NCBI GenBank assembly: GCA_017999915.1
Contig: JAGNKX010000009.1
Coordinates: 62,001-126,000, forward strand
Length of the DNA: 64,000 nt
Source: Spirochaetota bacterium
GTDB lineage: Bacteria > Spirochaetota > UBA4802 > UBA5550
Direction of reading: 5' to 3'
Under the pieces are notes generated by a model that was given only the letters and a program-made list of their open reading frames with translations, ran no database searches and was not told where the DNA came from. The translations under genes and the position numbers were made by a program. Of this stretch, positions 3,966-55,833 are shown piece after piece. Position 1 is the first letter of the stretch, and each line of letters begins with the position of its first letter.

Positions 3966-4373
3966 TTACCCCGTCGTGGTGCAGGTCAGCTTGCCGTGGC
4001 GCACGTTCTTGATCGACAGGAGCTTGTCGGCAATGGCCTGGATCTGCTTCGTCTTTCCCCGGAGGATGAGGACTTCCAGGCAGTTGTGCTCGTCCAGGTG
4101 TATATGGGTCGTGGACACGATGATGCGGTGGTTGTGGTGCTGGATCTCGTTCAGCTTGTCCGAGAGCTCCCTCACGTCATGGCTGTAGATCAGGGTGAGG
4201 GTGCCGATGGACTCGGCGTTCTTGTCGGAGAGATCCTCCGAAACCAGCCGGTCGCGGATAAGGTCGCGGATCGCCTCCGAACGGTTGACATACCCCTTCG
4301 ATTCGATGAGCTCGTCGAATCGCGTCAGCAGCTTCTCTTCAATCGATACGCCAAAACGGATCAATGATTTCAT
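3966..4373 (-). CDS. nikR: Nickel-responsive transcriptional repressor NikR
   Basis: This 135-residue protein has an N-terminal ribbon-helix-helix domain (SLIRFGVSIEEKLLTRFDELI, then YVNRSEAIRDLIRDRL) and a C-terminal ACT-like nickel domain. The high-affinity nickel ligands of E. coli NikR (His76, His87, His89, Cys95) are present with exact spacing as His79, His90, His92 and Cys98 in STTHIHLDEHNC. The start at MKSLIRFG has an AGGA ribosome site; an upstream in-frame start would add an unlikely basic tail. It is convergent with the metal-uptake genes and probably represses them when nickel is plentiful. Confidence 0.93.
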   Translation of the reverse strand: MKSLIRFGVSIEEKLLTRFDELIESKGYVNRSEAIRDLIRDRLVSEDLSDKNAESIGTLTLIYSHDVRELSDKLNEIQHHNHRIIVSTTHIHLDEHNCLEVLILRGKTKQIQAIADKLLSIKNVRHGKLTCTTTG

Positions 4374-4573
4374 GTCTTTTTCCTGTTTCTTTTTTAGAAT
4401 AACGGTCCGTACCGGCAGGTCCCTCACAATCCACGCATTATACAGGGAACCGGAAATCCCATCAAATCATTTTTTGGCCCCGCATCAAGAAAATACCCCA
4501 CCGGCAATAATAATTTAACTCTTGATTTTTATCGGGCTTTGCAGCATGATAACCTCATCATAGAGGTTCCACA

Positions 4574-10366: not shown

Positions 10367-10801
10367 TCAGATGTATTTGGGGAGATTGGGCGGGTACCCC
10401 CAGTAGAACCTCCAGCAAATTACATCATCAACCATTTCCTTAATGATAACATAATTAATAAAACGATAGTTATCGGTAAAAACTTTATTTCCCTTTTTCC
10501 CCAAGTATTTTTCAACAGCATATGCAAGAATCAACGAAACCGACATTTTCCTCAATTTCCTCAAATCCAGAAAATATTCATAGTCGTCCTCCCGCAGGTT
10601 CAGATGAAAGACATGCCAGCTATCCGGATTGTCTTTTTGCTGGTACTTCACCATCCTGCCCATACTGAGATTCTTATAATTCTCGCTCATTACTTTCTTT
10701 ATTAAGAATATTATAACCTCAGAGCGGGAAATCCCTCTTGATTCAGCCGCCCTGGCGATCTGGTTTAAAATAGCGACATGAATATTCACAGTTGTTTCCA
10801 T
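10367..10801 (-). CDS. Tandem ribbon-helix-helix DNA-binding protein, paralogue A
   Basis: This 144-residue protein starts METTVNIHVAIL, 8 bp after GGAG. Residues 1-35 form one ribbon-helix-helix unit: a strand, a first helix and ISRSEVIIFLIKKV as the second helix. Residues of about 60-100 look like a second unit: strand WHVFHLNLRE, helix DDYEYFLDLRKLRKM and helix SVSLILAYAVEKYL. The protein closely matches the gene at 42823. Near the C terminus, TDNYRF is encoded by the core of the dispersed repeat (10464-10476). It is probably a DNA-binding regulator; the target is unknown. Confidence 0.7.
   Translation of the reverse strand: METTVNIHVAILNQIARAAESRGISRSEVIIFLIKKVMSENYKNLSMGRMVKYQQKDNPDSWHVFHLNLREDDYEYFLDLRKLRKMSVSLILAYAVEKYLGKKGNKVFTDNYRFINYVIIKEMVDDVICWRFYWGYPPNLPKYI
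10464..10476 (-). repeat. CGATAACTATCGG repeat core inside a coding gene
   Basis: On the minus strand this reads ACCGATAACTATCG, encoding Thr-Asp-Asn-Tyr-Arg of the tandem RHH protein. It matches the intergenic repeats at 20.6-24.1 kb, including the preceding T-rich TTTTTACC. Confidence 0.6.
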
Positions 10802-10926
10802 TGTCATATCTCCATGTTTATACATGGAGATACGAATAGAGCGGATACATGTTAAACTTTTTTGAATAATTCCATGGTTAATATTCTAATTGACATATCT
10901 TCAAGAATGCTATCATCAAATAATAA

Positions 10927-33183: not shown

Positions 33184-33280
33184 GGATAGTTATCGTTCTT
33201 ATGAGATTATTATAGGTATTACTACCGATAACTATCGTTAAAAATCACTTGCAAGACAAATTTGCTCTGACCCTATCCCC
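33184..33280. repeat. Dispersed repeat pair and companion motif
   Basis: GGATAGTTATCG (33184-33195) and CCGATAACTATCG (33225-33237) face each other, followed by TGCTCTGACCCTATCCCC from 33263. The 32888-33324 spacer (437 bp) otherwise holds a terminator and the promoter of the next gene only. Confidence 0.7.
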
Positions 33281-42728: not shown

Positions 42729-42822
42729 TTTTTTAAATCCATATTTTCTATTCGTATACCCTTTAAAGCGCATCCCGGGTTTGTGGATGCGCTCTTTATA
42801 ATACTCGACAGGGGAGGGAAAT

Positions 42823-43263
42823 ATGGAAACCACACTAAATGTCGATGTTGATATTTTATCAAGAATTTCACAAGCTGCGCATTTGAAAGGCATTTCGCGT
42901 ACAGATATGATCATCTTTCTTATTAAAAAGACCATGGATGATGTTTCCCTCGAGGCTCATATGGGGAAGATGGTCCGTTACCAGGAAAAGAGAAATACGA
43001 AAGAATGGCACACTTTTCATGTGCGCCTGAGGATGGACGATTATGAATATTTTTTGGATCTCAGGAAACTCCTCAAGATGTCGGTTTCTCTTATTCTTGC
43101 CTATGCAGTGGAAAAATTTTTAGACGAGGTATTGAAAAACAGTATTAGCGATAACTATCGATATAAAAATTATACAGTCATTAGAGAAGTTGTCGACAAT
43201 ATCATTTCATGGAAATTCATATGGGGATTCCCAGTCAACTTCATTAAGAAGCTCAAGTTATAG
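42823..43263 (+). CDS. Tandem ribbon-helix-helix DNA-binding protein, paralogue B
   Basis: This 146-residue protein starts METTLNVDVDILSRI and has GGGAGGG upstream. It is a close paralogue of the gene at 10367: the same N-terminal ribbon-helix-helix (helix ISRTDMIIFLIKKT), the same second unit (WHTFHVRLRMDDYEYFLDLRK, SVSLILAYAVEKFL) and the same C-terminal DNYR followed by NY. The DNYR segment is encoded by the dispersed repeat core (43148-43160). Two RHH units in one chain would give a pseudo-dimer. The DNA target and regulon are unknown. Confidence 0.7.
   Translation: METTLNVDVDILSRISQAAHLKGISRTDMIIFLIKKTMDDVSLEAHMGKMVRYQEKRNTKEWHTFHVRLRMDDYEYFLDLRKLLKMSVSLILAYAVEKFLDEVLKNSISDNYRYKNYTVIREVVDNIISWKFIWGFPVNFIKKLKL
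43148..43160 (+). repeat. GCGATAACTATCG repeat core inside a coding gene
   Basis: This copy encodes Ser-Asp-Asn-Tyr-Arg in the second tandem RHH protein, at the same place as in the paralogue. Confidence 0.6.
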
Positions 43264-50138: not shown

Positions 50139-50169
50139 CCGATAGTTATCGGTGCGACCGATAACTATC
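50139..50169. repeat. Perfect inverted repeat pair at the permease/FMN gene junction
   Basis: GATAGTTATCGGT (50141-50153) and ACCGATAACTATC (50157-50169) are separated by GCG, a 13-bp perfect hairpin. The stop codon (TAG) of the FMN-binding gene lies inside it at 50165-50167. The hairpin may lower permease expression relative to upstream genes. Confidence 0.8.
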
Positions 50170-50779
50170 TTATTCCATAGACGAATTCATCCATCAAAAT
50201 TAAGTTCTTCTTTACCGCCCTCAGGGTCGCCCGGAAATCCTGGTCAGACCCCAGCGTCGGATTTTTAATGGCCGCCACAGGGCCCTTAGACGCTTTTCCT
50301 GCCTTTACATCATACCCATTGAAACTATCCAGCGAAAGCCCGATAAACTGACTATAAAAAGCCGGACTTCTCAGGGACGCGGCCTCCTTGTTTGTCAGCT
50401 TCTGAAAATAAAGGGACTTGATGACACCTTTCAGGTCCAGGGAGAGGAATACCTGGATCCCGCCATACTGCCCCTTCTGGTTCACACCATGGATATAGCC
50501 GATTTTTTCCTTGCCCCGGTATATCTCATAAAGTGTATAGGGCACGTCGATGGTCTCATAGAGTCCATGGAAGGTGTCCCCCAGCCTCTTCTCGATGCGC
50601 TGCAGCATCGGCTTCCCGCCCCTCCGATCAATTGAGATGTAAAGGGTTTTAAAACCTGTGGAGCCGGGGAAAAGGCGTTTGACATCCCGGTCAGGGTCAT
50701 TGAGATCGCATCCCACAGCCGCATAGAGCCGCGGGGCGGATAAGATTAACATTATGGAAAAAATGATTATTTTTTTCAT
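50165..50779 (-). CDS. FMN-binding-domain-type secreted protein
   Basis: This 204-residue protein is read from MKKIIIFSIMLILS, with AGGAG upstream and a signal peptide ending LYA. The mature part begins AVGCDLNDPDRDVKRLFPG and contains a RnfG/NosR-like FMN-binding fold (GGIQVFLSLDLKGVIKSLYF, then SPAFYSQFIGLSLDSF). The usual S-G-A-T FMN-linkage motif is not visible (NPTLGSDQDF instead), so covalent FMN is not assured. It is between the barrel gene and the ABC transporter genes. A role in envelope redox or cofactor handling is inferred. Confidence 0.65.
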   Translation of the reverse strand: MKKIIIFSIMLILSAPRLYAAVGCDLNDPDRDVKRLFPGSTGFKTLYISIDRRGGKPMLQRIEKRLGDTFHGLYETIDVPYTLYEIYRGKEKIGYIHGVNQKGQYGGIQVFLSLDLKGVIKSLYFQKLTNKEAASLRSPAFYSQFIGLSLDSFNGYDVKAGKASKGPVAAIKNPTLGSDQDFRATLRAVKKNLILMDEFVYGIR

Positions 50780-50799
50780 GATCCAGACTCCTATATTGA

Positions 50800-50937
50800 G
50801 ATAGTTATCGGATTTTTTCCCGATTGTTATCGGCGCCTTGCCCATACACCCGTTTGGACGGATAGTTATCGCTTATCTATCCAATTGTTATCGGTGCCTG
50901 GCTGATAGTTATCGTTACTTAGCCGATAGTTATCGGC
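50800..50937. repeat. Array of six direct GATAGTTATCG repeats
   Basis: Copies at 50800, 50819 (TTGTTATCGG variant), 50859, 50881 (TTGTTATCGG variant), 50901 and 50922 all point the same way, at about 20-40 bp intervals. The array fills the spacer between the barrel gene and the FMN-type gene. The barrel stop codon follows the last copy directly. Confidence 0.8.
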
Positions 50938-54373: not shown

Positions 54374-54527
54374 TTGCTCTGACACCAGGGAATATCCTAT
54401 GCTGATTCTTAAAGCACTGCCGATAACTATCCAGATTTACTGAACAATAGAGCTTTAAAAGACGGTTTTTAGTAAATGAGATTGATCCCATATTACCCTG
54501 ACACCCTATAATACCGATAGCTATCGG
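54374..54527. repeat. Repeats and companion motifs in the 5' spacer of msrBA
   Basis: TTGCTCTGACACC (from 54374), CCGATAACTATCC (54420-54432) and CCCTGACACCCTATA followed by the fully palindromic CCGATAGCTATCGG (54514-54527) occur here. Spacer 54259-54632 otherwise holds no gene; the region is AT-rich. Confidence 0.7.
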
Positions 54528-55662: not shown

Positions 55663-55833
55663 TCCGATAGTTATCGGGAATTTTATGATAAAGGGGAATG
55701 CTCACACCGATAGTTATCGGTAAACACTCGTTAAGAATATAGATATCGATATTTCCGGGTATCAGAGTAAAACCCACCCCGACAGTTATCGGAGAAACAG
55801 TGGTCAGGGCAATCATCAGTGCGATAGTTATCG
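55663..55833. repeat. Four repeats downstream of msrBA
   Basis: CCGATAGTTATCGGG (55663-55677), ACCGATAGTTATCGGTAAAC (from 55706), CGACAGTTATCGG (variant, 55779) and GCGATAGTTATCG (55820-55833) all point the same way. GGGTATCAGAGT (55757) and GGTCAGGGC (55802) look like decayed companion motifs. Confidence 0.75.

Follow-up and report, generated by a model that had tools for sequence, protein, structure and literature searches.

In the window, by which we mean the whole stretch of 64,000 nucleotides that was analysed, two genes encode small proteins predicted to hold two ribbon-helix-helix (RHH) units in one chain. Both are real open reading frames (ORFs): the first, on the forward strand at 42823..43263, encodes P0001 (146 aa), and the second, on the reverse strand at 10367..10825, encodes P0002 (152 aa), for which METTV at 10801 is, by homology, probably the true start rather than 10825. 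The two proteins are 58% identical. Elsewhere in the window, a regulator-like ORF of 153 aa at 3966-4427 on the reverse strand reads, judged by its sequence, like an RHH protein of the NikR type.

In the AlphaFold2 model of P0001, for which a 27-sequence alignment was the input, a first RHH unit (E2-8, H9-22, H26-43; 42826..42951, +) is followed by a second (E62-68, H71-84, H88-105; 43006..43137, +) and by a C-terminal beta-hairpin (residues 117-134; 43171..43224, +), with a pLDDT of 81 and a pTM of 0.67. The AlphaFold2 model of P0002 (pLDDT 77, pTM 0.69) keeps this order, with E8-16, H17-30 and H34-46, then E70-78, H79-92 and H96-107, and a hairpin at 125-142. The strand-helix-helix unit proposed earlier at the N terminus and again at about 60-100 was thus recovered, and both chains are predicted to contain the second RHH unit. 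When the model was compared with PDB by Foldseek, the best match was TraY of the F plasmid (PDB 9f0y, E 9.7e-4), and weaker fold neighbours were AvtR (4hv0, E about 1-2), single-chain Arc and DndE. We take the two-RHH reading to be right because strand-helix-helix occurs twice in the AlphaFold2 models and PDB folds match.

By sequence, P0002 matched Pfam RHH_5 at E 0.001 (19.2 bits, below the cut-off of 26) and P0001 gave no RHH match in Pfam; PHROG repressors were matched at E 6e-6 to 1e-3, NCBIfam gave no match above cut-off, and the closest family in a profile comparison with PDB sequences was CopG (1b01, E 0.076). TraY of F and AvtR, which share about 12-15% identity with the model in structural alignments, were absent from the phmmer and hmmsearch matches in PDB, so common descent was not detected by sequence. 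The original prediction called a single-chain RHH pseudo-dimer unusual; the arrangement is indeed uncommon, but it was already known from these two proteins. No small co-directional neighbour, as expected of a type II toxin partner, was seen in the ORF map at the two window genes.

Copy number and mobility of the family

The own genome (5.46 Mb) holds 13 paralogues of the double-RHH gene, P0001 included, spread over many contigs and 36-59% identical to P0001 in a genome search, so that the paralogy first noticed for the window genes stands but their number, two, does not. The paralogous genes are AT-rich (31-47% G+C vs 54-56%), and relatives of the same order carry from 1 to about 50 copies. 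Searches of IMG/VR and INPHARED gave no relatives of the family among viral contigs and phages, and a viral or phage origin was rejected on this ground. A promoter-like box, ATTCGTATAC, at 42750..42759 (+) upstream of P0001 is common upstream of the paralogues. More generally, a sizeable share of 100 homologues, across genera, have upstream of the RHH gene an A/T run, about 17 bases and then ATTCGTATA, as in the window at 42750-42759 and 10830-10838; this shared box is possibly a promoter for an alternative sigma factor.

In genome G027, the RHH gene and its putative promoter lie between GGGTGTGAATTA and an inverted copy, TAATTCACACCC, 600-670 bp apart. These 12-bp terminal inverted repeats were found at loci L196, L197, L200, L266 and L271, and target duplications of 7-9 bp flank 5 of 6 complete elements (e.g. 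TAACCACC in L200), the RHH gene being the sole gene of this small transposable unit. The terminal repeat GGGTGTGAATTA occurs 16 times in G027 vs 0 in four other genomes tested, the own genome included. Transposon ends were also sought around the own-genome RHH copies, and no terminal inverted repeats were found there. In genomes G025 and G029 many RHH copies stand at contig ends, which is where recent repeats typically end up. Hence, from the G027 elements and the contig-end copies, the gene appears to multiply in some lineages as a single-gene cassette, its in-gene site included.

A palindrome written in the linker codons

The 12-mer CGATAACTATCG lies in frame in both window genes. In P0001 it occupies 43149..43160 (+) within S-D-N-Y-R, the peptide ISDNYR being written ATT AGC GAT AAC TAT CGA, and its position is kept in the orthologue of genome G003; in P0002 it occupies 10464..10475 (-) within T-D-N-Y-R, where FTDNYR is written TTT ACC GAT AAC TAT CGT. 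The repeat core had indeed been seen in the codons of a shared DNYR, which was placed at the C terminus; the in-frame coincidence holds in both genes, but the site is not at the extreme C terminus and falls in a low-confidence linker before the hairpin. Nearly all of 102 homologues carry the site at this one fixed in-frame place, between the second RHH unit and the hairpin, with D there in 93 of them and no recognisable site in about 9. About 325 bases of the gene precede it, which would be unusual for the operator of a repressor. In the literature we found no paper on the motif CCGATAACTATCGG.

Codon usage at this place is nearly fixed. Among the 93 homologues with D, Asn is written AAC in 82/82 cases (30% in the rest of these genes), Thr ACC in 55/56 (24% in the rest), Asp is GAT in 93/93 and Tyr is TAT in 82/83, these counts being of events that are not independent, over homologues many of which are <50% identical. 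The codon after TAT begins with C in 78/93, although the residue may be R, L, Q, H or P, and where Asn is replaced by Ser the codon is AGT in 3 of 4 variants, giving GATAGTTATC, which is the other-strand reading of the same site. Judged by these codons, the in-gene site is conserved as DNA, not as protein, and a pure protein constraint on DNY was rejected on the codon statistics.

Divergent members carry AATGGATAACTATCCATT, AGTGGATAACTATCCACT, AAACGATAACTATCGTTT, TGCATAACTATGCA, GACATAACTATGTC or TTAAATAACTATTTAA as their in-gene site, and the palindrome covaries symmetrically. Among representatives of <60% identity, there are matches at pairs 4-6 in 124/234 cases vs 92 after shuffling of the right halves (p ≤ 2e-4), and where the left half is not CCGATA they match in 60/108 vs 37.5 shuffled (p ≤ 2e-4). 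The site also varies together with the ribbons of the protein encoded around it. When 105 protein columns were ranked by mutual information with the site bases at several redundancy cut-offs, residue 66 in the second ribbon led for base -4, and residue 2 in the first ribbon led for bases -5 and -6, whichever cut-off was applied; residue 4 of the first ribbon likewise covaries with the site. H66, the residue present in P0001, is found in 86/89 proteins where base -4 is G and in 0/8 where it is C. This covariation is partly phylogenetic, and an independent-pairs test of residue 2 against the site pointed in the expected direction, with 2.6 vs 0.2 of 6, but on too few supported pairs for significance. 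Within one genome, G020, the in-gene variants GCATAACTATGC and CCGATAACTATCGG occur side by side, and the ribbon residues vary too. Taken together, these patterns suggest that each protein may recognise the site within the gene that encodes it, and the tracking of the same half-site by both ribbons suggests that one chain would serve one half-site.

Dispersed, helically phased copies of the site

The own genome contains the repeat core CCGATAACTATC 217 times vs 0 for a reversed control, and exact CGATAACTATCG 176 times vs 1; in the window there are 52 core matches with at most 2 mismatches vs 4.9 expected. Among 46 genomes of the order, at least 5 canonical CCGATAACTATC sites are present in 18/23 genomes with the family vs 0/23 without it (Fisher 2.4e-8), so the homologues are not spread in repeat-free genomes. 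The 5/23 genomes that have the family and at most 2 canonical sites tend to carry a changed in-gene site. The exceptions followed furthest were G027 and G036, where the RHH genes carry CATA..TATG and the dispersed repeats share this change: G027 has 30 copies of the variant RCATAACTATGY and G036 has 10, vs 0 for the controls and 0 in the own-genus genomes tested. Of the 30 copies in G027, about 14 are not in RHH genes, and some of these form close pairs (20 and 72 bp); the ribbon residues of the RHH proteins in G027 are R2, S4 and non-H66.

In the window, sites at 20656, 20699 and 20742 (20656..20753, +) are spaced 43 and 43 bp in an intergenic gap, and those at 23543 (-), 23558, 23750, 23880, 24004 and 24068 (23543..24079) include the pair 24004/24068, kept in the syntenic contig G003:C47. 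The phased pair 33184 (-)/33226 (+), at 33184..33237 upstream of a transglutaminase-like gene, is 42 bp apart and is kept in G003 at 43 bp, as read from coordinate offsets, the local alignments having misaligned this pair. The sites 50140 (-)/50159 (+) (50140..50170) are also kept in G003, and a reverse-strand array at 50799..50935 comprises 50799, 50821, 50860, 50882 (2 mismatches), 50903 and 50924, of which the stretches 50799-50821 and 50860-50924 advance in steps of 21-22 bp. Further sites lie at 54421 and 54515 in a divergent gap (54421..54526, +), of which 54515 is kept in G003, and at 55665, 55708, 55780 and 55822 in a convergent gap (55665..55833, -), of which 2 are kept. By coordinate comparison, 7/8 site clusters of G003:C47 have counterparts in the window, with sites in the corresponding gaps or genes, and the flanks average 37% identity in local alignments, some of them misaligned.

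Over 866 kb, 145 sites form 66 clusters, in which the sequence common to the sites is the 12-16 bp core only. The distances between neighbours that have different spacers gather at 21-23, 42-43, 52-53, 64, 72-74, 83-84, 94 and 103-105 bp, a phasing at about 10.3-10.5 bp that was reached by 0/20000 random sets for the own genome and 2/20000 for other genomes. In these sequence properties, the dispersed sites behave like protein-binding sites. Sites are present in 10% of convergent, 7% of tandem and 8% of divergent gaps, and the adjoining genes have no common theme; gap type matters little, so the dispersed sites are not mainly promoter operators, and classical promoter operators as an account of all of them were rejected for this absence of promoter bias. 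CCGATAA, which resembles a sigma-28 -10 box, was also considered in that light, and the reading was dropped because no conserved flanking element surrounds the sites.

Some neighbouring observations are recorded here. At G000:C2:280385-280722 (L023), at least 16 copies of ACCGATAACTATCGG follow each other in 21-22 bp steps between divergent genes; other arrays, with array-specific spacers, lie at C2:139780, adjoining an apparent rRNA gene 3' end, and at C5:232341. A second dispersed motif, GGGGTCAGAGCA, occurs 68 times in the own genome vs 1 for the reversed control (window 20679, 20776, 24146 and 33264, and many in G000:C2 and C5), and about half of its matches lie within 100 bp of GATAACTATC sites; we regard it as a separate system because it is also present in genomes without the RHH family. 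At G000:C5:141864-142117 (L026) both motifs alternate in the apparent N-terminal linker of a cyclase-like ORF, and thus repeats appear to have entered a coding region.

A proposed self-addressed regulator and its alternatives

Starting from the computed fold, DNA-level conservation, covariations, co-occurrence, phasing and positional conservation, we infer how these proteins would bind, in what stoichiometry, with what effect on their own genes and to what end in arrays. Each chain would read one half-site CCGATA through its two ribbons, so that two chains would occupy the palindrome CCGATA-AC-TATCGG, and P0001 and P0002 would bind ACCGATAACTATCGGT specifically. The palindrome in the linker codons may be the operator for the gene's own product and, among close paralogues, for that of its siblings. 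Bound protein would most likely repress the gene, by a roadblock or by spreading from the site, and if so every gene copy brings its own brake. The same proteins would bind the dispersed, helically phased sites cooperatively; since these show no promoter preference, a role in architecture or silencing is as likely as classical gene regulation. We give this reading, of single-chain RHH regulators with an in-gene palindrome as their own operator and dispersed phased sites bound cooperatively by the same proteins, a probability of about two in three. The original prediction, namely recognition of the dispersed repeat by the proteins and a binding site within the genes, is supported in a stronger form than was stated, the candidate site being marked by DNA-level codon conservation, by palindromic covariation and by covariation with the ribbon residues.

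Another host DNA-binding protein might instead recognise the palindrome, with the RHH genes as one class of its targets and the RHH proteins binding elsewhere. Binding of the palindrome by the RHH proteins is deduced from sequence, sites occur in all kinds of gaps, and there are genomes such as G002, with 1 family member and 21 sites, all of which would fit such a factor; we nevertheless consider it unlikely, as the in-gene variant changes with the ribbon residues of the surrounding gene's protein, and the paralogue-specific sites within G020 would be needless for a single outside factor. The dispersed copies could also be selfish repeats, REP-like or MITE-like, that spread neutrally with the RHH genes as mobile carriers, as tandem 22-bp arrays with array-specific spacers, the intergenic spread and the mobile genes of G027 would suggest. 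This we hold to be improbable, because nothing beyond 12-16 bp is common to the sites, cores persist in orthologous gaps whose flanks have diverged, and different, non-duplicated spacers are still helically phased.

Two further explanations concern the level at which the element acts. As RNA, an mRNA hairpin or terminator, the palindrome could fold into a 6-bp stem with a tetraloop, and per kb, convergent gaps hold somewhat more sites; yet sites lie in other coding sequences on either strand (24 same, 20 opposite), their spacings follow the helical repeat of DNA, own-genus genes do not keep the outer pairs that a hairpin needs and Rfam gave no match, which makes an RNA role very improbable. 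The explanation by a conserved protein motif, D-N-Y, which the dispersed repeats would resemble for an unrelated reason, draws on the near-invariance of D110, N111 and Y117 in closer homologues, but it is strongly disfavoured and to us close to negligible: it leaves the codon uniformity across genomes of differing composition unaccounted for, the next residue varies while its first codon base stays C, and D and R change jointly to H and A or V, keeping the palindrome.

Parts of the preferred reading, an RHH regulator addressed to its own gene, have precedents. AvtR of Acidianus filamentous virus 6 likewise has two RHH motifs in one chain: it is a DNA-binding monomer with tandem motifs that has several operator sites, oligomerises along DNA and represses its own gene (PMC5569661). 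Unlike the family here, with its 13 to 50 copies, it is viral and a single gene, has no sequence relationship to it (about 12% identity), lacks the C-terminal hairpin, and its sites are described between gp29 and gp30, in intergenic DNA. TraY of F is also a single polypeptide, a monomer holding the whole RHH-dimer fold, of which several molecules bind DNA as a train (PMC12117103); at 15% identity, however, it is a relaxosome component acting at oriT, without dispersed sites, and no oriT or relaxase context was found near the RHH genes here. CopG, Arc and MetJ share ribbon recognition and the pairing of RHH units on a short palindrome, but need two chains per RHH unit, with one unit per chain, and have operators in promoters. 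In the relaxosome accessory protein SmpO, ribbon residues and DNA site change together as they do here, and one ribbon substitution (F7K) switches DNA specificity (PMC8136818), whereas its site is oriT, outside the gene, and each chain has one RHH unit. REP/RAYT repeats and MITEs are comparable as short palindromes dispersed in intergenic DNA, and the RHH gene of G027 rides in an element with terminal inverted repeats and target duplications; the sites here differ in sharing only the 12-16 bp core, in being helically phased and in lying inside the coding sequence of a protein family.

What is new here is an unusual coupling of coding sequence, candidate operator and genome-wide sites in a known kind of RHH regulator; RHH regulators and dispersed palindromes were known separately, and one gene family joins both. 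As the codons, the ribbon residues and the sites across the genome change together, the family offers about 100 natural protein/site pairs through which the code of RHH recognition could be studied. It raises the question why almost all copies, across bacterial families, keep the putative operator within the ORF while the genes move and multiply. A bolder reading, possible rather than probable, is a self-addressing family: a mobile cassette of one gene that proliferates, with the operator for its product in its own codons, so that regulator and operator would arrive together with every copy as a built-in copy-number control. In that reading, protein/site pairs would have drifted and seeded phased arrays to match over the chromosome, possibly as a lineage-specific chromatin or silencing system. 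If the proteins coat the phased arrays, they would constitute an unrecognised, lineage-specific system of DNA organisation or silencing.
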